This document shows, in pieces, positions 45,748 through 64,000 of a stretch of 64,000 nt of DNA. The stretch lies in the NCBI RefSeq assembly GCF_900637665.1, contig NZ_LR134386.1:1542501-1606500 (forward strand), in the 5' to 3' direction. A program made the position numbers and the translations under genes. The notes under the pieces were generated by a model. It saw nothing but the letters and a program-made list of their open reading frames with translations, did no database searches and was not told where the DNA came from. The stretch is from Chryseobacterium nakagawai. GTDB lineage: Bacteria; Bacteroidota; Bacteroidia; Flavobacteriales; Weeksellaceae. Positions within the stretch are counted from its first letter, which is position 1. Every line of letters begins with the position of its first letter.

Positions 45748-47841
45748 ATGAAAACAATCATTGCAGAAAAACCAAGCGTAGCAAGGGAAATAGCCGGACT
45801 TGTGGGAGCATCCGATAAAAAGGATGGCTACCTGACAGGTAACGGCTATTTTGTTACGTGGGCATTCGGTCATTTAATAGGACTGGGAATGCCCGAAGAT
45901 TACGGCATTTCGGGATTTGATAAAGCATCCCTGCCGATATTGCCCAACCCGTTTTTATTGACCGTCCGCAAGGTCAAAAAAGACAAAGGGTACACCGCCG
46001 ATACTGGCGCATTAAAGCAACTGAAAGTCATTGAGCAGCTTTTTAAGCAAAGCAACAGCATCATCGTTGCTACCGATGCAGGTCGTGAGGGCGAACTCAT
46101 TTTCAGGTACATTTATGAATACCTGAAATGCAACAAACCTTTTGAACGCCTTTGGATAAGTTCGCTTACCGAAAAGGCAATAAAGCAAGGCTTCAACAAC
46201 CTAAAAGACGGGGCAGCATTTGACGGACTGTATCAGGCAGCGCAAGGCAGAAGCCGTGCCGACTGGCTTGTAGGCATCAATGCTACACAGGCATTGAGCA
46301 TTGCCGCAGGCAATGGTATCTATTCCCTTGGAAGAGTGCAAACGCCCACACTGGCTTTGATATGCAAACGTTACCTCGACAATAAGAATTTCACGGTAAA
46401 GAAATACTGGCAGATACAATTAACGCACAACAAAGCCCAGGTTGATTTCAAAAGTATTTCCGCAACCAAATGGGACGAAAAGCAACTTGCCGATGATACC
46501 CTTAAAGCTATTCAGCGTTGCGCAACGGCAACCGTTACCTCGGTAGAAACCAAAAGCGTTACAGAACAGCCGCCATTGCTTTTTGACCTAACTGGCTTAC
46601 AAAAGGAAGCCAACAAAAGGCTGAAATTATCTGCTGAAGCAACGCTCAATATTGCACAAAGCCTGTACGAAAAGAAGTTTATCACGTACCCACGTACCGG
46701 AAGCAAATATATCCCTGAAGATATGTGGGCTGAAATTCCAAACCTTGTGCGGGCTTTGCAAAACCGTGAGGATTGCAAACAAGCCCTTACCAAAATCAAA
46801 TGGGGACGGTTCAACAAACGTATCTTGAATGACCTCCGTGTAACGGACCATCACGGTTTGTTGATTACGGATAAAGTACCGTCTGTACTCAATGCAGACG
46901 AAAACAAGATTTACAATATGATTGCGCTTCGGTTGCTCGAAGCCATATCACAAGCCTGTGTAAAGGAAATAACCAATGTTTCATTACAGGTATTGCATTA
47001 CGATTTTGCGGCAAAAGGCTGTAAAATTCAGGAAGCGGGTTGGCGTTCCATAAAAGGAAGTTTTACCGATGACGGCGAAGAGCCAGTGCAGGAACTACCC
47101 GAACTGCACAAAGGCGACGAACTTGCCATAAAGGAAGCCGCCGTTTTGGAAAAACAGATCAAGCCGCCAGTGCTTTATACCGAAGCCGGGCTTTTGTCGG
47201 CTATGGAAACCGCAGGGAAAGAAATCGAAAACGAGGAAGAGCGCAAAGCCCTCAAAAATATAGGTATCGGAACTCCAGCAACAAGAGCCGCCATTATTGA
47301 AACCCTGTTTACCCGTAATTATATCCAAAGGGATAAACGTTCCTTAGTTCCTACCGAAAAAGGATTGCAAGTGTACGAGTTGGTCAAAGACCGGAAAATT
47401 GCGGATGTGGCAATGACCGCCGAATGGGAATTGGCATTGCAGAAAATCGAAAATAACGAAGCGAATGCCGGAACATTCCAAAAGGAAATGGAAACCTATG
47501 CCAAATCCATTACAGATGAATTACTGCAAACTTCCATCGCAAGCACCAATCAGCCAAAACTGACCTGCCCGAAATGCAAAAGTAAGCAGCTTATTATCCG
47601 TGATAAGATTGTAAAATGCCCTGATGAGGCGTGTAACTGGGTGCAGTTCCGCACGGTCTGCGGTGTACAAATCAGTATTGAAAATGTAACAAGCCTTGTC
47701 AATAAAGGCAAAACCTCTCTTATCAAAGGAATGGAAAGCAAAGCCGGAAAGAAATTCGATGCTTATATCGTGCTGAACGATAAAGCCGAAAGTTCCTTTG
47801 AGTTTGAGAAAAACAAAAGCAGTAAACGAAATGGAAAATAA
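45748..47841 (+). CDS. topB: DNA topoisomerase III (type IA)
   Basis: 697 residues. Toprim domain with IIAEKPSVAREIAGLVGAS and the metal site VATDAGREGELIFRY; active-site Tyr314 in FITYPRTGSKYIP. A four-Cys zinc-binding segment near the C-terminus (CPKCKSKQLIIRDKIVKCPD, then EAC) contacts DNA. ICE-encoded copy, probably resolves intermediates during transfer. Starts 6 bp after DUF3945 and its stop overlaps the next ATG. Confidence 0.95.
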   Translation: MKTIIAEKPSVAREIAGLVGASDKKDGYLTGNGYFVTWAFGHLIGLGMPEDYGISGFDKASLPILPNPFLLTVRKVKKDKGYTADTGALKQLKVIEQLFKQSNSIIVATDAGREGELIFRYIYEYLKCNKPFERLWISSLTEKAIKQGFNNLKDGAAFDGLYQAAQGRSRADWLVGINATQALSIAAGNGIYSLGRVQTPTLALICKRYLDNKNFTVKKYWQIQLTHNKAQVDFKSISATKWDEKQLADDTLKAIQRCATATVTSVETKSVTEQPPLLFDLTGLQKEANKRLKLSAEATLNIAQSLYEKKFITYPRTGSKYIPEDMWAEIPNLVRALQNREDCKQALTKIKWGRFNKRILNDLRVTDHHGLLITDKVPSVLNADENKIYNMIALRLLEAISQACVKEITNVSLQVLHYDFAAKGCKIQEAGWRSIKGSFTDDGEEPVQELPELHKGDELAIKEAAVLEKQIKPPVLYTEAGLLSAMETAGKEIENEEERKALKNIGIGTPATRAAIIETLFTRNYIQRDKRSLVPTEKGLQVYELVKDRKIADVAMTAEWELALQKIENNEANAGTFQKEMETYAKSITDELLQTSIASTNQPKLTCPKCKSKQLIIRDKIVKCPDEACNWVQFRTVCGVQISIENVTSLVNKGKTSLIKGMESKAGKKFDAYIVLNDKAESSFEFEKNKSSKRNGK

Positions 47842-48744: not shown

Positions 48745-49875
48745 TTAAAATTGAAATAATAAGAAACCTAATAATGCACCTCCTAAAACAATGAATGCGC
48801 TATTGATTTTTTTGAATTTGAAAACGATAATGCCACTAACCAGTGCTATGGTAATTGTTTGCCAATCGGTAATGGTATCTTTGCCCATTATAAAACATAC
48901 TGCTGCTATAATAGAAACCGATGCGACATTTACTGCATCTAAAAAAGTGGATAGCCCTTTAGAATTTCGTAATTTCCTGATTAATGGGTTAAGAAGTGCT
49001 ACAAAAACAAATGAGGGAAGGAAAATGGCAATGGTTGAGATAATTGCTCCTGAAAGCCCATTTATCTGAAATCCAATAAATGTTACCGATGAAAAAACAG
49101 GGCCTGGTGTGAACTGACCTACCGCAATAGCATCCATTAGCTGCTGCCTTGTGAGTAAACCTGTCGTTACCAGTTCCGTATCTAAAAAGGCAAATAAAAC
49201 ATATCCGCTGCCATAAAGTATGGAACCAATTTTAAGGAAAGTCCAAAATAATTTGGCATTGGTAACAGACAAAAATGTAAACGCTGTGATTTGAAGAATG
49301 CCAATCGGCATAACGCTTGGTAAAGTATCAGCTTTTTTGCGCTGAACAGCGTACTGTACAAGAGCGAGCAACCCTGCTCCGAACATTAAATAAATCTCAT
49401 TGATACCCATCAAAGAAGCTATCAATACAGTAACACCAATGAAACTCAAAAACAATGACTTCACAGACTTTTTTGCCAAAGGGTAAACAGCTCCAATGAT
49501 AACAGCAATGATGGCAGGTTTGATGCCGTAGATAAATGGTTGTATTTCGGGTAATTGTCCATACTTGTGATATAGCAAAGCAAATACTCCTGTAACTAAA
49601 ACAGCGGGTAAAATAAAACATAAACCTGCCGTTAGTAATCCTTTCCAGCCACCTTTGTCATAACCGATATGAATAGCCATTTCTGTACTGTTAGGACCCG
49701 GAATAAGATTAGTTGCTCCAAGTAAGTCCAAAAAATGCTGTTCCTTCATCCATTTTCGTTTTATTACCACTTCAACCCGCATCATGGCAATATGGGCTGC
49801 CGGACCTCCAAAACCTATAAAGCCCAATTTGAGAAACAGTTTAGCAATTTCCTTCTGGCTAACTTCATTTTTCAT
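48745..49875 (-). CDS. chrA: Chromate efflux transporter ChrA
   Basis: 376 residues, two CHR domains. Domain 1 starts FLKLGFIGFGGPAAHIAMM (residues ~12-30) and has TNLIPGPNSTEMAIHIG; domain 2 has GYVLFAFLDTELVTTGLLTR and AVGQFTPGPVFSSVTFIG. About 10-11 membrane helices. Exports chromate and gives resistance. Overlaps the DoxX gene by 11 bp and ends the three-gene minus-strand unit. Confidence 0.93.
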   Translation of the reverse strand: MKNEVSQKEIAKLFLKLGFIGFGGPAAHIAMMRVEVVIKRKWMKEQHFLDLLGATNLIPGPNSTEMAIHIGYDKGGWKGLLTAGLCFILPAVLVTGVFALLYHKYGQLPEIQPFIYGIKPAIIAVIIGAVYPLAKKSVKSLFLSFIGVTVLIASLMGINEIYLMFGAGLLALVQYAVQRKKADTLPSVMPIGILQITAFTFLSVTNAKLFWTFLKIGSILYGSGYVLFAFLDTELVTTGLLTRQQLMDAIAVGQFTPGPVFSSVTFIGFQINGLSGAIISTIAIFLPSFVFVALLNPLIRKLRNSKGLSTFLDAVNVASVSIIAAVCFIMGKDTITDWQTITIALVSGIIVFKFKKINSAFIVLGGALLGFLLFQF

Positions 49876-50296
49876 TATTCTTCATCTTATTATCAATAGA
49901 CCAAAAGCCGCCACCTTTTATAAGCAAGAAAATATTACCTAACAACATAGCCCAGTCCGTCCGGCTTCCGTGCATCATTTCCCAGAAACCCTGATTGGCT
50001 AATATATCTGCTTTGGTAGCAGCAATGGCAACAAGCATAATGATGATAAGCGGAATACTGGCCAGCCTTGTAAAAAGCCCGATAAGGATAAGTATTCCAC
50101 AAAGGATTTCGCAAGTACCTACAAAACTTCCCAAAAAGTCAGGTGAGGGCAACCCGATTTTTTCAAAACGACCTGCTCCTAAAGTATCTGGAAATAAAAA
50201 TTTCTGAATGCCTTCAGAAAGAAATACAGCACCGACCATTAACCGAATGATAAGGGTGGTTTTGGAATGGTCTGAATGAATGATTTTTTGAAACAT
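49865..50296 (-). CDS. DoxX family membrane protein of the chromate unit
   Basis: 143 residues, four helices. DoxX motif LIIRLMVGAVFLSEGIQKFL at the start and GTCEILCGILILIGLFTRLA in the middle; both motifs parallel the chromosomal DoxX at 14646. It is 2 bp after the lipoprotein gene and overlaps chrA, so all three are one operon. Probably a redox or quinone-linked accessory of chromate stress handling. Confidence 0.88.
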   Translation of the reverse strand: MFQKIIHSDHSKTTLIIRLMVGAVFLSEGIQKFLFPDTLGAGRFEKIGLPSPDFLGSFVGTCEILCGILILIGLFTRLASIPLIIIMLVAIAATKADILANQGFWEMMHGSRTDWAMLLGNIFLLIKGGGFWSIDNKMKNNEK

Positions 50297-50298
50297 GA

Positions 50299-50787
50299 TT
50301 ATGGTGAGAGTTTGAATTCCTGATTGCTGAACATATTTTTGTTCGGAATTTTTATTTGTATGAATTCGTGCTTTGTTGCACTGTGGCAGTTTGTGCAGGT
50401 ATTTGTAAGAACCATATAGCTATGCTCAAACTGTGGTAAATCCCTATGTTGGATAGCACTTGAAACACTGTCAATAGCCGGAGTAATCATAGATATGGAT
50501 TGACTTTCCGGTCTTGCCGATTGATATTTTTCAATATCCTGCAAAATTTCCCTGATTTCGTTGATTTCAAAATCAGCCAATTCCCAGTTTTCGCTCTTTC
50601 CTGCAAACCAGAGCTTGTTATGATGAACCTGCACACTACTCATAAATTCCCCAAATCCCGGTTTGTAACTATCATCCAATTTGGATTGCAGGTTATCAAT
50701 CTGATTTTGCAAAGCCTTCCGATTGCTATCTTCCTGATTACAGGCAAACAAGATGATGATTGTGAGGAAGACAAATAAGTATTTCAT
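50299..50787 (-). CDS. Lipoprotein with a c-type heme motif
   Basis: 162 residues from ATG 50787 (an upstream GTG-like extension exists to 50820 but lacks a signal). Lipobox IILFACNQ (Cys15), then a long helical region (residues 20-125) like a cytochrome c' bundle, and one heme-binding motif NTCTNCHSATKHEF near 128-135. A lipidated mono-heme protein facing the periplasm. First of the three-gene unit with DoxX and ChrA; electron donor to chromate or peroxide handling is inference. Confidence 0.75.
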   Translation of the reverse strand: MKYLFVFLTIIILFACNQEDSNRKALQNQIDNLQSKLDDSYKPGFGEFMSSVQVHHNKLWFAGKSENWELADFEINEIREILQDIEKYQSARPESQSISMITPAIDSVSSAIQHRDLPQFEHSYMVLTNTCTNCHSATKHEFIQIKIPNKNMFSNQEFKLSP

Positions 50788-50876
50788 GACACATGATTTT
50801 CGATGAATATTACGCATCAAAATTAATACAATGCTTTGTCAATTTTATGGTATATTTGAAAATATCACGGTAGCTT

Positions 50877-51677
50877 TTAAGTATTACGGAATAAAAACGG
50901 GGTAACGCCTGTGTGACGTTTGAAATATTTCACAAAATGGGAAGTGTCGTTAAAATTCAAACTATAAGCGATTTCAGAAACACTGTTGTCTGTATAAATC
51001 AGTTGTCTTTTTGCTTCGCTAATGATGTGCTCGGCAATCACTTCTGCTGCCGACTGATTAAGTGTTTTACGACAAATGGCATTTAGGTTTTGTGGTGTTG
51101 TATGGAGCTTTTCTGCGTAATGGGCAACACTGTTATGTAAGTCGCTTGTCTGGTTTAGTAATTCCCTGAATGATACTATTGTATCATCCGTTTTGTTGGT
51201 CTGAACAGGCAAGGGTTTTGCAGCATCCAATGTTTTCGCAAACAATGCTTTCAATAATCCTTCTAATACAATAAAATTCTTTTCCGTGATAAGCAGTTTG
51301 AATAATGTATCAATACCCTGGATTTCTTTCAAATGAATACAATTAAATCCGCTTAACTTGGATAGAAGATTTTTCAGCCCGCCATCCAACGATTTTTCAA
51401 CAAAGCCTTTCTTTAAAATCAGAACATATCCCTCAGGGACATCAGCAATATCCCAGTGATGAACTTGTTCTTTGCGAACAAAAAATAGTGTTGGTGGTTT
51501 TATTGAAAATGAAGTATGGTCGATGGTATGAAAACCTTTTCCTTTCTGTAGATAAATGATTTCAAAATAACTGCTGTGCTTGTGTGGCTCGGTCTTGCGA
51601 ATTTCTTTTCTGAACGGTGCAATTTTTAATAATGCTGCCGCTTCAATTTTGTTTTTTATGGATATGTTTTTTTTCAA
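50877..51677 (-). CDS. AraC-family regulator of the ICE cargo region
   Basis: 266 residues, TTG start at 51677 (no in-frame ATG before the HTH that would keep the sensor). Cupin-like sensor residues 30-110 (HKHSSYFEIIYLQKGKGFHT, FVRKEQVHHWDI); double HTH at ~165-266 (IAYSLNFNDTSHFVKYFKRH, TGVTPFLFRNT). Reads in the same frame as the ACR3 gene, whose stop lies 33 nt upstream, so translation probably follows re-initiation. Likely regulates the flanking metal genes. Confidence 0.85.
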   Translation of the reverse strand: MKKNISIKNKIEAAALLKIAPFRKEIRKTEPHKHSSYFEIIYLQKGKGFHTIDHTSFSIKPPTLFFVRKEQVHHWDIADVPEGYVLILKKGFVEKSLDGGLKNLLSKLSGFNCIHLKEIQGIDTLFKLLITEKNFIVLEGLLKALFAKTLDAAKPLPVQTNKTDDTIVSFRELLNQTSDLHNSVAHYAEKLHTTPQNLNAICRKTLNQSAAEVIAEHIISEAKRQLIYTDNSVSEIAYSLNFNDTSHFVKYFKRHTGVTPFLFRNT

Positions 51678-51710: not shown

Positions 51711-52742
51711 TTAGTTATAATATTTTTTGTTCAACCATAAACTTGCCATGACCAAAAGTATCAATATGGGTACTTCTACCAATGGACCAATAACGCCTAC
51801 AAATGCCTGTGGGGAATGAATGCCAAATACTCCTATTGCTACCGCTATTGCCAATTCAAAATTGTTTCCTGTGGCTGTAAAGGCTATTGAGGCATTTTTG
51901 TCGTAAGGAACGTTTAGGGATTTGTTGATAAAGAAGCTGACGAAAAACATCAGTACAAAATAGATGATTAACGGTATGGCAACTTTTACCACATCCATTG
52001 GCAACTCTACTATTTTATCGCCTTTCAGACTAAACATTAATACGATTGTAAAAAGTAAAGCATATAATGTAATGGGCGATATTAGGGGTACAAATTTCCT
52101 GTTATACCATTCTATGCCTTTTGATTTTACCAATGCGTAACGGCTAATAAAACCTGCTAAGAAAGGAATACCTAAGTATATCAATACGCTTTCTGTAACA
52201 TCTTTCATTGATACACTTACGTTAAAGTTCGCTAAGCCTAATTTGTTGGGTAATATGTTGATGAACAGCCAAACTAAGAAACTGTAACTTATTATCTGAA
52301 AAACACTATTTAATGCGACTAACATCGCTGTATATTCTCTGTTTGCTTTAGCTAAATCACTCCATACGATTACCATTGCGATACATCTTGCCAAACCTAT
52401 CAGTATCAAGCCTGTCATATAATCGGGTTCGTTCCGTAAAAACAAAATTGCTAAGCCGAACATCAAAACTGTACCGATAACCCAATTGAGCAATAAGGAT
52501 ATGCCAATTACTTTTTTATCTTTAAATGCTTGGGGCAATAATGTATAATCCACTTTTGCCAATGGCGGGTACATCATCAGTATCAGACCTATTGCCAAAG
52601 GAATGTTTGTCGTGCCTACGGATAGGCTGTCCGTAATTTTTGAGATACCCGGAAAGAAATGTCCCAATCCTATACCTATCGCCATTGCAAGGAATATCCA
52701 TAAGGTTAGGTATCTGTCTAAGAATTTTAGTTTTGGTTGCAT
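51711..52742 (-). CDS. acr3: ACR3-type arsenite efflux permease
   Basis: 343 residues, 10 transmembrane helices. ACR3 pattern: [20 protein letters not shown] at the start, catalytic Cys in [14 protein letters not shown] (TM4), and [20 protein letters not shown] with [11 protein letters not shown] in TM9-TM10. Extrudes As(III) driven by proton motive force. Preceded 7 bp by the GcvH-like gene, so in the same operon as arsR. Confidence 0.94.
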
Positions 52743-52749
52743 TGCTTGG

Positions 52750-53127
52750 CTAATTTGTAAGTTCTTTATATTGGTTTGATGTCAATAATTTTTCTAATTC
52801 GGTAATGTCTTTGATTTCAATTTTAATCAACCAACCATTTCCAAAAGGTTCTGAATTGATTAGTGTTGGTTCTTTTAATAGTTGCTTATTGGTTTCAATT
52901 ATTTTACCCGATACAGGCATAAATAAATCGCTGACTGTTTTAACCGCTTCAACAGAGCCGAATACTTCATCCTGCTGAAAACTATATCCAACGTTTGGTA
53001 AGTCTGCATATACGATTTCGCCCAATTCACTTTGTGCAAATGCTGTGATGCCTATTGTACCTGTGTTGTCCTGTACGCTTATCCACGTATGTTCTTTTGA
53101 ATATTTTAAATCGTTTGGAAATTCCAT
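52750..53127 (-). CDS. GcvH-like lipoyl carrier protein in the arsenic operon
   Basis: 125 residues, complete lipoyl fold: [20 protein letters not shown] at the start and the lipoylation motif [20 protein letters not shown] with Lys63. It is a typical glycine-cleavage H protein by sequence, yet lies among arsenic genes with no gcvT, gcvP or lipoate ligase nearby. Reduced lipoyl groups have vicinal thiols that bind As(III) tightly. A carrier or sink role is plausible; a spare H protein replacing a poisoned one is an alternative. Confidence 0.9.
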
Positions 53128-53144
53128 TTTTCTGATGTTTTAGA

Positions 53145-53918
53145 TTAATAACCTCTCCTTAAATTTTCTGCATATTCGTTTGGCAATGGGCTTTCTTCAA
53201 CTGCTTTTGCTGCTTTTTCAATATCATAATCAAAGCGTATAAATTCTACACTGATACTGTCTTTATCCAATACAGAACTATCTTCATTGATTGTAAGCAT
53301 TATATAACCACCTCTTACATCACTGTCTTTGGGCTTTCCTACCGAACCTATATTTATGGCGTGTCTAAAATGGTTTTGTCCGTCAATACCGGAATTTAAA
53401 ATACGGTGGTATGGCTTGTGTGTATGCCCAAAACACATAATGTCTGCATCAGCTTGTTCCATTATCCTAAGCATACTTTTTTCTTCCCTATCCTCAAATA
53501 AGTATTCGTTTATTTTTCTTGGACTTCCGTGTACTAATAATAAATTGAGCTTATCCTCATTCAATTGAAATTCTACCTTGATATGTGCTGGAAGTGTACG
53601 CAAATAGGCTCTTTCTTCATCTTTCATAATAGAGTTGGTAAATGAAATAGAGATTTTCCCATTGTCTTTTTCTCCGTCTGTTTTGTACGCACATCCGCAA
53701 TCGTTGCTCATACGTCCAATGCCAAAATCATAATTCCCTGCAATCGTTGGTATTTTCCTTTTACGGATTTCGTTTACTACTTCATTTGCCCAAATGTTAT
53801 AGCCTACCAAATCGCCTAAGCAATAAATACTATCGGGGTTTCTTTTTTCTACATCTTCAAAGAATGCTTCTAATGCAGGTAGGTTGGCGTGAATGTCGCT
53901 GAATAATGCAATTTTCAT
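53145..53918 (-). CDS. Metallophosphoesterase (YfcE/MJ0936-like) in the arsenic operon
   Basis: 257 residues, calcineurin-like fold. All five metal motifs seen: LFSDIHANLPAL, YCLGDLVGYN, IAGNYDFGIG (Tyr in place of the common His), LLLVHGSPRK, and CFGHTHKPYH. Hydrolyses phosphodiester or phosphomonoester bonds; substrate unknown. It lies between DUF6428 and the lipoyl protein gene, 17-31 bp from each. No arsenic role is documented that I know of. Confidence 0.9.
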   Translation of the reverse strand: MKIALFSDIHANLPALEAFFEDVEKRNPDSIYCLGDLVGYNIWANEVVNEIRKRKIPTIAGNYDFGIGRMSNDCGCAYKTDGEKDNGKISISFTNSIMKDEERAYLRTLPAHIKVEFQLNEDKLNLLLVHGSPRKINEYLFEDREEKSMLRIMEQADADIMCFGHTHKPYHRILNSGIDGQNHFRHAINIGSVGKPKDSDVRGGYIMLTINEDSSVLDKDSISVEFIRFDYDIEKAAKAVEESPLPNEYAENLRRGY

Positions 53919-53948
53919 TTTTATTGATTTTTTATATGATAGTTTAAT

Positions 53949-54413
53949 TTAACAACATCCCGAATTAGGCGTACAGCAAGCATCTTTTAATTCTACTAAG
54001 TTCACTTTTTGTTTTTCCGCAGGAATGCCGCAGGCATCACTTGCCAGGCAAGTGGTTTGTTTGTTCTTTAATACAAAATGGTTCCCGTTAAAATCCAAAT
54101 CATATTTACCAATCGTTTCGCTTTGGTATTCTACCTCTATCTCGGCATCTTCGATACCCAGTTTTTCTTCAGATAGTTTAATGATGTTTAATAGTTTGGT
54201 TGGCTTTAATCGGTGTTCAAAATCGTTAGCGTTCCATAATTGGAAATTGACAACTTTTTCATTTCTTATAGTTCCGCCACAATCAATGAAGTGTTTTGTA
54301 ATAATGCCTACTTCTGTAACGTGGAAATGCTCCGGTACAAATGCTCCGTTCGCTAATTGAAATTCAACATTATCTAATGCTGGTAAGATTTCTTTGATTT
54401 TTGATAGTTTCAT
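53949..54413 (-). CDS. DUF6428 protein with a cysteine-rich tail
   Basis: 154 residues, no signal peptide. Family-like body (FQLANGAFVPEHFHVTEVGI, then NFQLWNANDFEHRLKPTKLL). The C-terminus carries a cysteine set: TTCLASDACGIP and LKDACCTPNSGCC, six cysteines in 45 residues. DUF6428 genes recur next to ArsR and ACR3 in Bacteroidota. The tail looks suited to bind As(III), so a metallochaperone role for handing arsenite to the efflux pump is inferred. Confidence 0.85.
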   Translation of the reverse strand: MKLSKIKEILPALDNVEFQLANGAFVPEHFHVTEVGIITKHFIDCGGTIRNEKVVNFQLWNANDFEHRLKPTKLLNIIKLSEEKLGIEDAEIEVEYQSETIGKYDLDFNGNHFVLKNKQTTCLASDACGIPAEKQKVNLVELKDACCTPNSGCC

Positions 54414-54470
54414 TGTTTTTTATTTAATTGTTATATTGCTTTATTACGATTGATACATTAAAAAAAATGC

Positions 54471-54800
54471 TTAACAGCATTTATCAACCCCTACATTATC
54501 TACAAAGAACATATTGAGTTCATTTTTTAGCTTGTGCCAAACATTTTCATCAATGCAGTAACATACACTGGTTCCCTCGATACTTCCTTTGATGATGCCA
54601 ATGCTTTTCAGTTCTTTCAAATGTTGTGAAATGGTAGCCTGTGCCAATCCTAATTCTTCCACTAAGTCATTACAAATGCAAGCTTTCTGCTTGATGATGT
54701 ATTGCAGGATAGCTATACGGGCAGGATGAGCCAGTGCCTTTAAAGTGGTTGCCAAGCTGTTTTGCTGTTCTGTAAATATTTCTGTTTTTGTTACGCCCAT
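54471..54800 (-). CDS. arsR: ArsR-family arsenite-responsive repressor
   Basis: 109 residues from ATG 54800; a TTG at 54824 is in frame but overlaps the operator. Winged HTH: LATTLKALAHPARIAILQYI and GLAQATISQHLKELKSIGII. Sensing cysteines ACICNDL (helix region) plus SVCYC and the terminal VDKCC supply several thiols for As(III). First gene of the arsenic operon, with a palindromic site directly upstream. Confidence 0.92.
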   Translation of the reverse strand: MGVTKTEIFTEQQNSLATTLKALAHPARIAILQYIIKQKACICNDLVEELGLAQATISQHLKELKSIGIIKGSIEGTSVCYCIDENVWHKLKNELNMFFVDNVGVDKCC

Positions 54801-54816
54801 CTTATTTGTAATAATA

Positions 54817-54834
54817 TATCGCAATATTACGATA
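54817..54834. promoter_or_regulatory. ArsR operator
   Basis: TATCGCAATATTACGATA: dyad TATCG/CGATA around CAATATTA, centred 25 bp before the arsR ATG. The position fits autorepression of the arsenic operon. Confidence 0.7.
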
Positions 54835-55026
54835 AATATTTAAACCACAAAAGTAGTTTGTGAAAAAACATATAGCCAAGCACCAATTCTGTATAAATAA
54901 TTAGTTCAATCTTCTATTGTAAATAGCCAAATCCTGCCTTTCAAAGCCAAACCCTACAACATTATCAGAGGCATTTGCTCCTGCTTATAATTTTAGGATT
55001 TAAGTAAAATTCTAAATAAAATAAGT

Positions 55027-55464
55027 ATGGATGTACAGCAAAAAGACCTGTCGTATTTCAGATTACGACTACAAGAATTATTAAACAGCAGCTTTCCCGA
55101 AAAGGCACACGACCAAAAATTTATTGACCAACGGTCTTCGTGGGCTGCCAATGCTTATGAGGGTGCTTTCCGTTCGGGAAACGCCGTTGAGCAATGCGAC
55201 GAAATAGCCAACTACATACTTTTTGAGGGCTTGCACTTCTCCAAGTTCGACACGGTTTTCAAAGTGGTATGCAATGAATTTGATACCATAATGGCAGACG
55301 AGGAACTGCGACCGTTCGCCCTGAAAATGTTCCCCGTTTGTGAGCCTGTTTTCGCAGGATATGAATTAACCGATGATTTCGCCAACGGAAATGAGTTTGA
55401 TGTACTCTACACCGAACTGACCGGAACCATCTCAATATGGATTGAGGAAAATGGGCTTCAGTAA
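55027..55464 (+). CDS. DUF1896 family ICE protein
   Basis: 145 residues. DUF1896 signature: [60 protein letters not shown]. Found ahead of the large methylase-helicase gene in CTnDOT-like elements; function unknown. Its 3' end overlaps the start of the next gene by 14 bp (ATG 55451). Confidence 0.9.
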
Positions 55465-58400
55465 AAAGCAACATCTCCAACTGAATATTGATGCCCTGCG
55501 AATTGCTTTTAAACTGGAAAAGGAGAAACGCCAAGCCACCGTAGGCGAAAGACTGCTAATGATGCGATACAGCGGATTTGGCGGTCTTAAATTCGTTCTG
55601 AACCCCGTAGAAAACGAAATAGACATCAATCATTGGAGAAAAACAGAACACGACCTTTTTCCATTAACGCAGGAACTCCACCAATTACTCAAAGAAAATT
55701 CCGAAGACGATAAGCAGTACCGCAGGTATGTGGACAGTATGAAAAGTTCCGTACTGACGGCTTTTTATACCCCGCCAAAGGTTATAGATGCCATTTCATC
55801 CGCCTTGCGGGATAAGGGTCTGCATATTGATAAATTCCTCGAACCCTCCGCAGGTATCGGCTCATTCATCCAATCCTTTTCGGAAAATCAGAAAGCCAGT
55901 GTTACCGCCTATGAAAAAGACTTGCTCACAGGTAAGATTTTAAAGCAGCTTTATCCTGAAAGCAATATCCGTATCAACGGTTTTGAGGAAATTCCCGAAA
56001 GGGAACAAAACAACTATGATATAATCGCCAGTAATATACCGTTCGGCGATACTTCTGTATTTGACCTTTCTTATTCACGCAGCAGAAACAGCGCAAAGGA
56101 ACAGGCTGCCCGAAGCATACACAATTACTTTTTTCTGAAAGGTGCTGATATGCTCCGTGAGGGTGGTTTGTTGGCTTACATCACTTCGCAGGGCATTCTG
56201 AATAGCCCTAAGAACGAACCCATACGCAGGGCGTTGATGCAGGATAATAATTTGGTTTCGGTTGTAAGACTGCCCAACAATCTGTTTACCGAATATGCAG
56301 GTACGGAAGTGGGCAGCGACCTGATTATCCTGCAAAAAAATACGGCAAAACAAAATCTGACCGACAGGGAAGATCTGTTTTGCCAAAGCAAGCCAACCGA
56401 ATACAATACGCCGGGCAATGCGCTCTTTCAGGACGGTACAAGAATTATCCATACCGACCAAAAATTAGATACCGACCCATACGGTCAACCTGCCTTAATC
56501 TATACGCATAAAGACGGTGTTGAGGGTATTGCCAAAGATTTAAAACAAATGCTTTCCGAAGATTTTGGGAACCATCTGAATTTGAATTTATACAAAGGCG
56601 AACGCAATGATGAGCCTATGATACAAATTCCGATTGAACCAAAGGTTACACCTCCGGTCATAGACCCTGCAATCGTTCAGCAAAAACCGCAGCTTATAAC
56701 CACTCCGGTAGTCCATCAGGAAAGCCCACAGGAACTAAAACAACTAAGCATTTTTGACCTGTTTGAAAGTGCGGGTGAGCCTGTAATGGTGCTTGCTCCA
56801 CCTAAAAGAACTACCCAAAACAAAAGGCAAAGTAGTAATAAAAGAAGAGGCACAATAGGTCGTCAACCCGACCTGTTCAGCAGTGCCAGGCAGCAACCTT
56901 ATACACCGCTAAAATCCAATGGTGCTACCAATGGAAAAAGCCAAGTAAACAGCAAAAAACAGGAAGCCATCGGCGACCTGTTTTCACAAATAAACGGCAA
57001 TGGCCAGTCTGATAAGACTGCCATTCCCGTTACCGATATTAACACCGTTCCTGAACCTGCTCCGTATAGCGGCGAACTGCAATTATTCCACCGGAATGAT
57101 TGCCTTGTGGTGGATAACGGTTGGGTCGGCTATTTGCAAGAGGTGGATAAGGAAGACAAAAAAGCTATCTTTCATCCATTGCAATTGCCGTCGGCACAGA
57201 AAGCAAGAGCCGAAGCCTACATAGCCGTAAGGGACAGTTATATCAACCTGTACCAAAAAGAAGCTGAAAAACAGACCGAACACAGGGAAGAACGGGAAAC
57301 CCTGAACCTGCTGTACGATGCCTTTACCAAAAAATACGGCAATCTCAATACTGCCGACAATGCCAAGCTGATAAAAACAGACAGTGCAGGTAAAGAAATC
57401 CCCTATCTGGAGCGTGTCATTGGCGGCATAATCCATAAAGCGGATATTTTCAGCCGTCCGGTCAGTTTCTCTACTACCACGTTAGCAACCGACAATCCCG
57501 AAGAGGCTTTAGCTGCCTCCCTGAACAAATACGGAAATGTGGATTTGGACTTTATGTCCGAAATCAGCAGCCTGCCTGCCGATACCCTGAAAGAAGCCCT
57601 GCACGGGCGGTTGTTCTACAATCCGCTACAACAGGAATATGAAATAGCCGAACGTTGGATTGCAGGCAACGTGGTGGAGAAAGCAGATGAAGTAAGAGCC
57701 TATCTCGAAAACTATCCCGATGATACCGAAGCCAAAGAAAGCCTTACCGCTTTAGAGGAAGCCCGACCAAAACGTATCGAATTTGAGGAACTGGATTTTA
57801 ACCTCGGCGAACGGTGGATACCTACCGGAATTTATGCCCGTTTCGCTTCGCATTTGTTCGATGCGGATGTACTGGTTCATTACTCCGAAAGCTCCGACGA
57901 CTTTTCCGTAAAGTGTCATCAGGGCAATATGCACATTTGGGAAAAATATGCGGTCAAAGCGGAAAGCCGCACGTTTGACGGTATTGCCCTGCTTAAACAC
58001 GCTCTTGTCAATACCACGCCTGATATTACCAAAAAAGTAATGGTTGGCGACCAAGAGGTTAAAGTACGGGATATGGAAGCCATACAAATGGCGAACACCA
58101 AGATTGACGAAATCCGTACCGCCTTTACCGACTGGCTACACGCACAGAACGATGAGTTTAAAAACAGGCTGACCGACCAGTACAACGATACCTTTAATTG
58201 TTTCGTTCGCCCAAACTATGACGGAAGCCATCAGGAATTTCCGGGATTAGACCGCAAGGGAGCAGGCATTGAAGACCTGTATTCAAGTCAAAAGGACACC
58301 GTTTGGATGATAAAGCTGAACAACGGTGCTATCTGCGACCACGAAGTAGGCGCAGGAAAAACGCTGATAATGTGTACCGCAGCGCAGGAAATGAAGCGTT

Positions 58401-60889
58401 TGGGATTAGCCCATAAGCCGATGATTATCGGGCTGAAAGCAAATATACCTGCCATTGCCGAAGACTACCGTAAAGCCTATCCACACGCCAAAATCCTTTA
58501 TCCGGGTATTGATGATTTTACGCCGAAAAAACGCCTGCGGATTTTCGGGGATATTAAAAATAATGATTGGGATTGCGTGATACTTACGCACGACCAGTTC
58601 GGAATGATACCGCAATCGCCCGAAATACAAAAGGAAATCCTCGAAATAGAACTGGACAGCGTAGAGCGCAATCTCGATGCCCTGAAATCGCAGGGCAAGG
58701 AAGTGACAAGGGGAATGCTCGCCGGGGTAATCAAGCGGAAAGAAAATCTTGAAGTAAAGCTGAAAACGCTGCAACACGATATTGAAAACCGTAAGGATGA
58801 TATTGTGGACTTTAAGATGATGGGCATAGACCATTTGTTTGTGGACGAAAGCCACCAGTTCAAAAACCTGATGTTCAACACCCGTCATACACGGGTTGCC
58901 GGACTGGGGAACGTGGACGGCAGCCAAAAGGCACTGAACCTGCTGTTTGCAATCCGCACCATTCAGGAGCGTACCAATGCGGATATGGGTGCAACCTTTC
59001 TTTCGGGTACAACCATCAGCAATTCATTAACGGAATTGTACCTGCTGTTTAAATACCTGCGCCCCCGTGCATTGGAAAAACAGGGTATTCATTCCTTTGA
59101 TGCGTGGGCAGCTATCTATGCACGGAAAACGACCGATTATGAATTTTCGGTAGCTAACAATATTGTAGCAAAAGAGCGTTTCCGCTACTTTATCAAAGTG
59201 CCGGAACTGGCACAGTTCTATTCTGAAATCACGGATTACAGAACGGCTAAGGATATTGGTATTGACCGCCCCACTAAGAACGAGGTATTGTACAACATAC
59301 CGCCAACGCCCGACCAAGAAGCCTTTATCCAAAGCCTGATGCAGTTTGCCAAAACGGGCGATGCTACTTTACTCGGTAGAGAACCATTATCGCAAAGGGA
59401 AGAAAAAGCAAAGATGCTCATTGCGACGGACTATGCCCGTAAGATGTCGCTCGATATGCGTATGGTAAGTGGTATATACGACGACCATCCTGACAACAAG
59501 GCTTCGCATTGTGCGGTAAATATCGCCAAGTATTACAACCAGTTCAACGCACAGAAAGGAACGCAGTTCGTTTTCTCCGATTTGGGAACCTACAAGCCCG
59601 GCGAATGGAACGTGTACTCCGAAATAAAACGCAAACTCGTGGAGGACCACGGCATACCTGCGCACGAAGTAAGGTTTATTCAGGAAGCGAAAAATGATAA
59701 GCAACGTAAGGAACTTATCAACGGAATGAACGAGGGCAAAATCCGTGTACTGTTCGGTTCTACAAGTATGCTCGGAACTGGCGTAAACGCACAGAAAAGA
59801 GCTGTTGCCGTTCATCATTTAGATACACCGTGGCGACCGTCTGACCTTGCCCAAAGGGACGGGCGGGCAATCAGAAAAGGCAATGAGATTGCCAAATTCT
59901 TTGCCGATAATAAAGTTGCTGTGATTATCTATGCAGTTGAAAAATCGTTGGACAGTTACAAATTCAACCTGCTGTATAATAAGCAGCTTTTCATCGACCA
60001 GTTAAAGACTAACAACCTGACCAAAAGAACGATTGACGAGGGAAGTATGGACGAAAAATCGGGAATGAACTTTTCGGAATATGTGGCAATCCTGTCAGGA
60101 AATACAGACCTGTTGGATAAAGCCAAACTGGAAAAACAGATTGCCGGACTGGAAAGCGAAAAGCAGGCGTTCAACCGCTCTAAATCCAGTGCCAAATTTA
60201 AGGTACAGGATTATATGGAAATGTTGCAAAGCACTCAATCCCGTTTGAGCCGGATGAGTACCGACTGGGAAAACTTACAGCAACGCCTGCAAAAGCGTTC
60301 GGACGGTACAATCGAAAACCCTGTGCTGTTAGATGGCTTGCCGCCCAATGCAAATCCGAAACAAATAGGCGCAAAACTGAACGAGATTGCGAACAAAGCC
60401 CCCACGGCAGGCGACTATCGTGAAATAGGCAACCTCTACGGGTTTCAATTATTGGTTAAAACAGAACTTCCAAAGGATAATTCAACACTCGAAAGGGTCA
60501 ATAGATTTTTTATAACTGGCGAGGGCAATATCAAGTACACCTACAATAACGGTCTGATGGCAAAAGACCCCGAAACCGCCGCAATGAATTTTTTAAGGGC
60601 TTTGGAAAAACTTCCGGGCTTTGTGAAGCAGGAGCAGGAGAAAATCGCTGAAATACAAAAAGACCTGCCGATACTTCAGGAAGTGGTTAACGGTACTTGG
60701 GCTAAGGAAAGTCGATTGAGTGAGCTTAAAACGGAACTGGCTGCCGTAGAAAGAAAGATACAGCTATCTATTACGCCGGAAACCAAACAAGATGCTTCGG
60801 AGCAGGCAGAAAAGCAGAATGAAGCCCCAAAGGTGCAGGAAAGCATTATACGGACAAAAGGCGTTCATTCACCTCGTGGCGTATTATAA
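55451..60889 (+). CDS. Giant ICE N6-DNA methylase/SNF2-type helicase fusion
   Basis: 1812 residues from ATG 55451 (a TTG at 55442 is 3 codons upstream). N-terminal adenine-methylase domain: SAM motif [15 protein letters not shown] (~128-142) and catalytic NIPFGD (~195). A linker with Pro/Gln/Lys tracts spans ~400-530. SF2/SNF2 helicase core: [17 protein letters not shown] (~965), [13 protein letters not shown] (~1130), [15 protein letters not shown], and the C-terminal motif [14 protein letters not shown] (~1468). The last ~300 residues are coiled-coil-like. A barbed defence or transfer protein of unknown target, present in most Bacteroidota ICEs of this type. Confidence 0.92.
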
Positions 60890-61978: not shown

Positions 61979-64000
61979 TTAATAAGTCAATGCCAGCCCC
62001 ACACCAAAGCCCATATCGCTATCATAGTGGGTACGTATACCTATATTCTTATTAATGATATATCTAAGTTCTGCCATATACTCAAAATCTGTGTTGACCA
62101 TAAAGCCGCCTCTTAATCTTTTCGAGATAGGAATATCCTCACGCATCAACGATAGCCTTACAATACCATCGTGATATACCTCTGCCTGAAAATTAACAAG
62201 CATTGGCAAAGTGTACATAACACCTAAGCTAACAGCCCTGCGTGTATCTTTTTCATTCTTTTGCCCGAACAGATTTGTTTCGTGTTCGTCTATCCCCATT
62301 TTACGATAACGCCAGTCAAAGCCAATAAATGGCATGAGCCATTGCATTTTACCGATATATCGCCCCAAGTGGGTTTCAACTTCATAACCGTGCATATCAT
62401 TGTAACCTAAACGCCATTCTGTACCCAAGCTCCATCTTGCGTTTTGGAGCATTGCCTCTCCGTCATTACCATTGGTGGCAAAATCATTCTGCGCCATGAA
62501 ATGGGGCATATTGCTTTCCCTCTGTAATGCTTTATAGGCTTTAGCCTTATCGGGTAAGTATGGGTTTTGGTAGTCGCCTACGGCAAACACCCTGTTCATT
62601 CCCGACATCATGTGATATAAGATATGGCAATGGAAGAACCAGTCGCCGTCCACGTTTGCTGCAAATTCAAGGGTGTCTGTTTCCATCGGCATAATATCAA
62701 TGATATTTTTAAGCGGTGCATTTTCACCTTTGCCGTTCAATACCCTAAAATCAAATCCGTGGAGGTGCATCGGGTGGCGCATCATAGAGTTGTTATGAAT
62801 AGTAATACGCAGTATTTCTCCTTTCTTAACGGGTATTTTATCCGTTTCGGAAAGCACCTTATTGTCCATGCTCCAAACGTAGCGGTTCATATTTCCGGTA
62901 AGGGTAAATTTTACATCTTTTACAGGCGCATCTTTGGGAAGTGTTGTATTGTAGGGAGATTTGAGCATGGCATAGTTTAAGGTAACAATATCTCCCAACG
63001 CATTTGCATTATAACGGTTGGGGTCATTATCCATGTTCATACCATCGTGCTTGCTGTGGTCTGCTTTCTTGCCTGCTTCGCCTGTAATTTCCGGGTACAT
63101 CACTACGTTCATATCCATTTGGTTCAGGCTCATATTCATACCCATATCGTCCAGGTCGCCATTCATCTTCATCATATCGTTCATCATCTTCATCCCCTCA
63201 AAATATTTCAATCGTGGAAGTGGAGAAATAAGCTGCTTGATGCCGTTACCTATAAAGTAGCTTGCCGATTGTGTCCTGTCCTCGGTTGTAGCTAAAAACT
63301 CATACGACAAACCATCGTCAGGAATGGTAACTACTATATCGTATGTTTCGGAAACCGCAATGATTAACCTGTCCACCTCAACGGGTTCCACATCGTTACC
63401 GTCATTTGCCACCACGGTAATCTTACCCCCGGCATAACGCAGCCAGAAATAGGAAGATGCACCACCATTGGATATACGGAGCCGCACCTTATCCCCCGCC
63501 TTTAAGGTTTTACCATCAACCGTTTTTAGCTCCGGCGCATTGCTGCCATTAATAAGGATTTTATCATAATACACATCGCTTACGTCCATTGCCAGCATCC
63601 GTTTCCATTCATTCTTTACTTTTATGCCAAATTTCCCCTCTCTAATAGCTTCAACGTATGATTGCGTAGCCCCTTTTTTGATGGCAGCCCAATCATTGGC
63701 ATTGTGCAACATCCGGTTAATGTTGTTGGGATTATAATTTGTCCATTCGCTTAGGATGATGGGCACAGTGGGCAAATCGTCAATCCCTTTCCTAAAGGTC
63801 TTATCATCCTCACGTTTTTTCATTACAAAATTGCCGTACATTCCTATCTGCTCCTGCAATCCTGAATGGGAATGATACCAGTGCGTACCGTGCTGAATAA
63901 TAGGGAAACGATAGGTATAGGTAGTACCGGGCTTAATCGGCTGTTGTGTAAGATGGGGTACACCGTCCTCTTTATTGGGCAGGAATACGCCGTGCCAGTG
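61979..64000 (-). CDS. copA: Multicopper oxidase fused to a CopB-like beta-barrel (5' end outside window)
   Basis: At least 673 residues; the frame continues past 64000. The codons at the edge already contain HWHGVFLPN, and HGTHWYHSHSG follows, both type-3 copper motifs, so the ATG at 63859 is internal. A methionine-rich copper-binding section (MKMMNDMMKMNGDLDDMGMN) lies in the middle, and the last cupredoxin ends HPMHLHGFDFRV and FHCHILYHMMSGMN (T1 copper). After it, ~190 residues resemble CopB/PcoB: YEVETHLGRYIGKMQWLMPF, NFQAEVYHDGIVRLSLMRED, ending in GVGLALTY with a terminal aromatic as in outer-membrane barrels. Oxidises Cu(I) for resistance; the fusion likely tethers it to the outer membrane. 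Confidence 0.88.
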   Translation of the reverse strand, partial: HWHGVFLPNKEDGVPHLTQQPIKPGTTYTYRFPIIQHGTHWYHSHSGLQEQIGMYGNFVMKKREDDKTFRKGIDDLPTVPIILSEWTNYNPNNINRMLHNANDWAAIKKGATQSYVEAIREGKFGIKVKNEWKRMLAMDVSDVYYDKILINGSNAPELKTVDGKTLKAGDKVRLRISNGGASSYFWLRYAGGKITVVANDGNDVEPVEVDRLIIAVSETYDIVVTIPDDGLSYEFLATTEDRTQSASYFIGNGIKQLISPLPRLKYFEGMKMMNDMMKMNGDLDDMGMNMSLNQMDMNVVMYPEITGEAGKKADHSKHDGMNMDNDPNRYNANALGDIVTLNYAMLKSPYNTTLPKDAPVKDVKFTLTGNMNRYVWSMDNKVLSETDKIPVKKGEILRITIHNNSMMRHPMHLHGFDFRVLNGKGENAPLKNIIDIMPMETDTLEFAANVDGDWFFHCHILYHMMSGMNRVFAVGDYQNPYLPDKAKAYKALQRESNMPHFMAQNDFATNGNDGEAMLQNARWSLGTEWRLGYNDMHGYEVETHLGRYIGKMQWLMPFIGFDWRYRKMGIDEHETNLFGQKNEKDTRRAVSLGVMYTLPMLVNFQAEVYHDGIVRLSLMREDIPISKRLRGGFMVNTDFEYMAELRYIINKNIGIRTHYDSDMGFGVGLALTY

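Follow-up and report, generated by a model that had tools for sequence, protein, structure and literature searches.

A GcvH-like lipoyl protein as candidate partner of a Car1-type arsenate reductase in the arsenic operon of Chryseobacterium nakagawai

Lipoyl groups are textbook victims of arsenite. An arsenic operon of Chryseobacterium nakagawai, found in a stretch of 64,000 nucleotides (contig NZ_LR134386.1, positions 1,542,501 to 1,606,500; hereafter the window) of its 5.6 Mb, single-contig genome, nevertheless encodes a lipoyl protein of the GcvH family next to a metallophosphoesterase. The closest described reductase is Car1 of Rufibacter tibetensis (Shen et al. 2024, Mol Microbiol 122:201). 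This enzyme is reported to be coupled to thioredoxin, with a disulfide between Cys74 and Cys76. A study of an arsenic-methylating Paraclostridium describes Car1 as a metallophosphoesterase-type arsenate reductase in which Cys74 and Cys76 are essential, and adds that an ars-operon metallophosphoesterase of that bacterium resembles it (PMC12124457). The closest described lipoyl systems lie outside arsenic resistance. In Corynebacterium, an AhpD-like oxidoreductase of the CxxC type is reduced preferentially by lipoamide dehydrogenase (Lpd), SucB and reduced nicotinamide adenine dinucleotide (NADH), with a catalytic coefficient reported to be orders of magnitude above those of the thioredoxin-reductase and mycothiol routes (PMC10460364). 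The LbpA proteins bind lipoate and belong to the Hdr-like pathway of sulfur oxidation (PMC6067878).

In the window operon a lipoyl protein appears, judging from its sequence and setting, to have been recruited into resistance and cut loose from glycine cleavage. The reading we prefer, tentatively, is that the operon would be an arsenate-reduction and arsenite-efflux cassette in which the lipoylated GcvH serves as the dedicated dithiol partner of a Car1-type reductase and not in glycine cleavage. Its genes are as follows.

54471..54800, minus strand: arsR, ArsR/SmtB-family repressor (PF01022 and NF033788)
53949..54413, minus strand: DUF6428 protein with a Cys-rich tail, a possible As(III)-binding protein (PF20001, E 7e-67)
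53145..53918, minus strand: metallophosphoesterase on a calcineurin-like scaffold with Cys74/Cys76, predicted Car1-type arsenate reductase (PF12850/PF00149; GNYD and Cys-Gly-Cys in the alignment)
52750..53127, minus strand: gcvH, GcvH-like lipoyl carrier of an ars-specific clade (PF01597, E 1.5e-41; TIGR00527 above cut-off)
51711..52742, minus strand: acr3, ACR3-family arsenite efflux transporter (TIGR00832, E 1e-130; 435.7 bits against a cut-off of 282.8)

How close is the phosphoesterase to Car1? Its cysteines stand at exactly positions 74 and 76 (Cys74-Gly-Cys76), and its SDIH, GDL, GN, VHGS and GHTH segments, which we take to be the metal-site motifs of metallophosphoesterases, all align. 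An alignment of 80 distinct homologues shows GNYD and, after it, Cys-Gly-Cys in all Car1-type members linked to ars genes except for one with Phe74 (L143), and the Cys-less relatives mostly read GNHD; L035 and L239-L241 are ars operons whose sole phosphoesterase is such a relative. Because the window protein shares GNYD and Cys74-Gly-Cys76 with the ars-linked members, it is classified as a predicted Car1-type enzyme. An initial annotation of this DNA had assigned the phosphoesterase to an unknown supporting step; that view gives way here, since the protein carries the Cys74/Cys76 signature of a described arsenate reductase, and the reductase half of the puzzle would already be explained by Car1. 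A second Car1-related phosphoesterase, with GNHD or GNHE and without Cys-Gly-Cys, often lies directly after Car1 in ars operons (L032:5775-6509, L223, L224, L226, L180:5240-5989 and L262:6222-6968), and in L239-L241 a protein of this GNHD/GNHE kind stands in for Car1. The Phe74 of L143 (3800-4570, on a metagenome contig), whose adjoining GcvH and ACR3 match over their length, is either a true variant or an assembly error.

The GcvH of the window has the GCV_H domain, and a residue tally bears out the earlier claim that its Lys63 is intact. This lysine is kept in every ars copy except one remnant, and the intact copies also keep Asp67. Position 14 is where these proteins part from their relatives: Thr14 is found in 26 of 28 distinct ars-linked GcvHs, the window's included, the exceptions being the remnant (L058/L020) and Dyadobacter L180 (Glu), as against Glu14 in 94 of 95 other GcvHs, in all 28 further GcvHs of a class sample and in the five solved H-protein chains shown in the alignment (14 matched). 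The numbering of the window protein coincides with that of the aligned E. coli chain. In simulations of the E. coli H-protein the loaded lipoate arm makes hydrogen bonds to Glu-12 and Glu-14 through its aminomethyl nitrogen (PMC7733448); the window protein, with Thr14, lacks the second of these partners, a residue that need not be indispensable. Not one of the 28 distinct ars GcvHs has a cysteine, so any dithiol chemistry must come from the lipoyl group, and no gcvT match lies within 1.8 kb of them.

In a 67-row tree a branch with a Shimodaira-Hasegawa-like approximate likelihood ratio support of 93, below the tool's star, separates the 24 intact ars GcvHs (Dyadobacter's not counted) from the rest; a larger, unfinished GcvH tree needs three changes. 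The Dyadobacter L180 protein lies outside that ars branch, which suggests, but does not prove, a second recruitment. Median ratios of nonsynonymous to synonymous substitution (dN/dS) are 0.15 for GcvH, 0.08 for DUF6428, 0.055 for ACR3 and 0.04 for Car1, and the ars GcvH is under purifying selection. Together, the retained Lys63, the lack of cysteine, Thr14 in place of Glu14 and the single tree branch make it probable that the ars GcvH has left glycine cleavage and is now a lipoyl carrier devoted to arsenic. The lipoyl protein singled out by the initial annotation is thus a real and recurrent member of arsenic operons, predicted to be lipoylatable and distinct from housekeeping GcvH. It looks like a specialised GcvH lineage that is undescribed within the open-access literature covered: no GcvH in an ars operon was found there, at a coverage mostly of listing level, and Shen et al. 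2024 may describe the neighbours.

The host genomes keep lipoyl proteins of their own. Each searched genome with an ars GcvH (sets of 20 and 8, partly overlapping) has at least one other GcvH, and the genome carrying the window encodes one LipA in full frame, one protein that we take from its motif to be LipB-like, and four lipoamide dehydrogenases; neither its LipB-like protein nor its Lpd finds a match in 71 ars loci. About 66 kb from the ars gcvH, the same genome has a pckA-gcvH-gcvT group (L098/L108, named from its open reading frames) with an extra gcvH of the glycine-cleavage type. At L110, in genome G082, a pckA-gcvH-gcvT group with such an extra gcvH is followed by a GcvH-like protein that has diverged strongly and by a methyltransferase-like reading frame.

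The neighbour that the ars GcvH keeps most faithfully is Car1. The family sample of 246 genomes includes 29 that hold 31 Car1-type matches, and the next gene is visible in 29 of these 31 loci (L065 and L068 break off within Car1); in 21 of the 29 evaluable operons that next gene is GcvH. Sixteen further family genomes have only a 33-36% relative, and eight such loci, when examined, were without ars genes. A scan of the window GcvH against 84,980 species confirmed at least 564 relatives, of which 80 were kept: 14 lie in ars operons; for the other 66, flanks of up to 6 kb were fetched, and no ars query has a match in them. All 14 ars loci have a Car1-family gene upstream of GcvH, separated from it at L152 by a small gene, presumably YnfA-like, and at L180, as at L262, by the second phosphoesterase; in the remaining ones of the 14 (all but L152 and L180) it directly adjoins GcvH. 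The majority of GcvH loci have gcvH flanked by car1 and acr3. At L153 and L154, where ACR3 is upstream of Car1, GcvH still comes after Car1, and at L180 and L262, where ACR3 is farther upstream, it stays by the Car1-phosphoesterase pair. Because GcvH remains by Car1 in these four loci with ACR3 elsewhere, Car1 is its best-placed partner. Dyadobacter psychrotolerans has both of these GcvH ars islands (L180 and L262) and a third, separate gcvH. In the class sample (395 genomes), GcvH matches above 58% identity come from the window and from G405 (L227/L266) alone; of the 47 other matching genomes, 28 were fetched together with flanks of 1.5 kb, and Car1 does not appear there. GcvH sequences found in genomes of the window's family recur unchanged in Chryseobacterium, Epilithonimonas and Soonwooa records.

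What could a lipoyl protein do for Car1? ArsR would sense As(III) and the operon would be derepressed, Car1 would reduce As(V) to As(III) through Cys74/Cys76, and ACR3 would export the product, some of which the Cys tail of DUF6428 would probably bind. LipB and LipA would lipoylate Lys63 of GcvH, NADH and dihydrolipoamide dehydrogenase would reduce the lipoyl arm, and the resulting dihydrolipoyl arm would in turn reduce the Cys74-Cys76 disulfide of Car1, possibly taking up nascent As(III) as well. Thioredoxin would probably substitute as a fallback donor, which would leave GcvH an accessory, lost in some lineages. Stated in full, this is a proposal of lipoate-dependent arsenate reduction, in which an operon-encoded, GcvH-derived lipoyl protein couples NADH and lipoamide dehydrogenase to a phosphatase-fold reductase as a third redox route, next to thioredoxin and glutaredoxin, open to cytosolic arsenate reductases, its dithiol possibly escorting As(III); in this fully specified form the proposal is possible but rather doubtful. 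A donor role is favoured because Glu14 is lost, Lys63 is kept, the Car1-family neighbour is constant and Corynebacterium offers a precedent.

Several observations weigh against GcvH as the donor to Car1. The R. tibetensis enzyme is said to work with thioredoxin, so that a lipoyl donor would be dispensable in principle. GcvH is broken in three of the 21 family operons that have it (L039 and L046 by a stop, L058 as a remnant), with the Car1 frame free of stops, and is absent from eight of the 29; it is accordingly an accessory in Car1 operons. Outside the family it is rarer still. The phylum sample of 395 genomes gave 23 with a match, from which 20 loci were widened, 19 entered the census and 16 have a Cys-Gly-Cys Car1; just one of these 16 has GcvH (L227), and none of six Car1 loci from a plasmid collection does. 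An intact GcvH stands beside the Phe74 Car1 of L143, and another, in Niabella defluvii (L147, 3739-7412), beside Car1 and ACR3 matches that are split between frames, from either decay or sequencing errors; ACR3 is split in L145 too. No Car1 site separated 20 GcvH-plus from eight GcvH-minus loci at the thresholds used. GcvH divergence, moreover, follows that of ACR3 (Pearson 0.88, Spearman 0.89) slightly more closely than that of Car1 (0.81 and 0.85).

One further pattern counts in favour of the donor reading, with limits. PTPC, a reductase-like gene with a CTHNSRR motif that is annotated elsewhere as protein-tyrosine-phosphatase, occurs in seven of the eight family loci without GcvH against none of the 21 with it (Fisher 5e-6), so that all seven family loci carrying it lack GcvH; since the loci are related, this contrast is not an independent test. 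One PTPC copy gave no Pfam match at 0.001. In Dyadobacter, L180 and L262 have GcvH together with an ordinary ArsC, and the L262 GcvH, which is outside the 28, has Glu14 like that of L180; neither the PTPC pattern nor the loss of Glu14 is therefore universal.

Could the lipoyl arm handle arsenite and not electrons? Vicinal dithiols bind As(III), and the dihydrolipoyl arm might take As(III) from Car1 and hand it to ACR3 without donating electrons. This role, already put forward in the initial annotation, is the main rival and a serious one, because the usual place of gcvH is between the other two genes and because GcvH divergence tracks that of ACR3; such a carrier would also need no cysteine of its own. 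We consider it somewhat unlikely all the same, as GcvH keeps to Car1, or to the Car1-phosphoesterase pair, when ACR3 is upstream (L153/L154) or separated (L180/L262), and the operon already has, in DUF6428, a Cys-rich candidate for a carrier. The roles of electron donor and As(III) carrier could be combined in one dithiol.

It is improbable that GcvH is a sacrificial sink, the other role proposed in the initial annotation, acting as an inducible lipoyl protein soaking up As(III) and sparing the lipoyl enzymes of central metabolism. These enzymes are arsenite targets, as the idea requires, but a sink would have no need to stay beside Car1 or to lose Glu14, and one gene among enzyme genes would be a weak source of a stoichiometric sink. 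In its favour, gcvH3 of Pseudomonas pseudoalcaligenes is induced by arsenite, a response that its authors relate to folate metabolism (PMC10138600). An arsenic-tolerant spare that sustains glycine cleavage, or a lipoyl relay to other enzymes, under arsenic stress would fit the TIGR00527 score and the conserved Asp67 and Lys63, but is quite unlikely given the near-general loss of Glu14 (26 of 28), the missing gcvT neighbours and the other gcvH of each searched host. Least probable is that gcvH is a hitchhiker, carried along by a mobile ars cassette but with no part in arsenic handling. Its broken and missing copies and its dN/dS above that of its neighbours might be cited for this; against it stand purifying selection, a Lys63 lost only in the remnant, Thr14 throughout the clade, the spread of the gene to further families with Car1 still as its neighbour and, in Dyadobacter, a distinct GcvH lineage that is likewise found beside Car1.

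The setting of the predicted Car1-GcvH pair is that of a compact operon. The earlier description of an arsR operator, arsR, DUF6428, metallophosphoesterase, gcvH and acr3 as a single-strand unit with gaps of 7-57 bp is confirmed by the coordinates, which give gaps of 57, 30, 17 and 7 bp from arsR to acr3; they use the ATG start of arsR, which the list of reading frames begins at an upstream TTG (54824). A gene order unique to this strain had been named as a result that would undo the annotation, yet further genomes of the family, and Sphingobacterium and Niabella records as well, have the order ArsR-DUF6428-Car1-GcvH-ACR3. Two putative regulatory sites precede arsR.

54818..54833, no strand assigned: operator-like near-palindrome ATCGCAATATTACGAT, lying 18-33 bp ahead of the ATG of arsR
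54848..54855, minus strand: promoter-like -7 element TACTTTTG, read from the sequence and variable in other loci

The operator-like site is the sole match in the window with up to two mismatches allowed, 0.49 being expected for that looser pattern, and the same 16-mer precedes arsR in many of the other ars loci, though not in all; some of these loci are from other families. The -7 element fits the Bacteroidota TAnnTTTG consensus.

The DUF6428 protein matches its profile over its full length (PF20001, positions 1-155 of 155). Six cysteines had been reported within 45 residues; the protein in fact has six in its last 33 residues and, in addition, Cys45. Six of these (Cys45, 122, 128, 147, 153 and 154) do not vary among 27 aligned sequences, some just 29-32% identical to the window's. 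An AlphaFold2 model has a mean predicted local distance difference test score of 84 and is confident for residues ~1-120 and poor for the Cys tail; comparison with PDB folds gave no confident match, and no mention of DUF6428 was found in the open-access literature. That the tail binds As(III) is a natural guess.

Beyond the operon, an AraC-type regulator (50877-51677) lies between it and a same-strand group (48745-50820) of a chromate-transporter family protein, a DoxX protein and a lipoprotein-like reading frame containing CxxCH. A topoisomerase, a DUF1896 protein, an 1815-residue N6-methylase/helicase fusion and a multicopper oxidase occupy 45748-47841, 55027-60889 and 61979-63859. The topoisomerase, DUF1896 and N6-methylase/helicase genes are, we presume, those of a conjugative element, and the ars operon may ride on a metal-resistance-bearing element of conjugative type.

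If GcvH does feed Car1 or carry As(III), lipoate would gain a role in arsenic detoxification and thereby, after sulfur oxidation, another task beyond central metabolism. Members of the ars GcvH family are easily recognised by Thr14 and by their Car1 neighbour, and the question of the lipoyl donor is approachable with few purified proteins.

The described systems each match part of this operon. R. tibetensis Car1, compared on the reductase only, shares the metallophosphoesterase scaffold, the positions of Cys74 and Cys76 and the ars-operon setting, whereas the window operon places a lipoyl GcvH beside the reductase. ArsD/ArsA-type operons likewise have a small Cys-rich protein that, as DUF6428 here, could pass As(III) to the pump, but the window operon is without ArsA, and profile and PDB fold searches brought up no link in sequence or fold between DUF6428 and ArsD. 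LbpA is another GcvH-like single lipoyl protein outside glycine cleavage, gene-clustered with a sulfur redox system; its clusters mostly bring their own lipoate ligase (PMC6067878). The ars protein, by contrast, passes the TIGR00527 cut-off for true GcvH, and the window operon has neither hdr-like genes nor a lipoate-protein ligase, hdr and LplA not having been searched for in other loci. In the Corynebacterium pathway of Lpd, SucB and an AhpD-type protein, a lipoyl protein donates electrons to a vicinal-cysteine disulfide in defence; that donor is SucB, a dihydrolipoamide succinyltransferase (PMC10460364), whereas here it would be a dedicated, operon-encoded GcvH.

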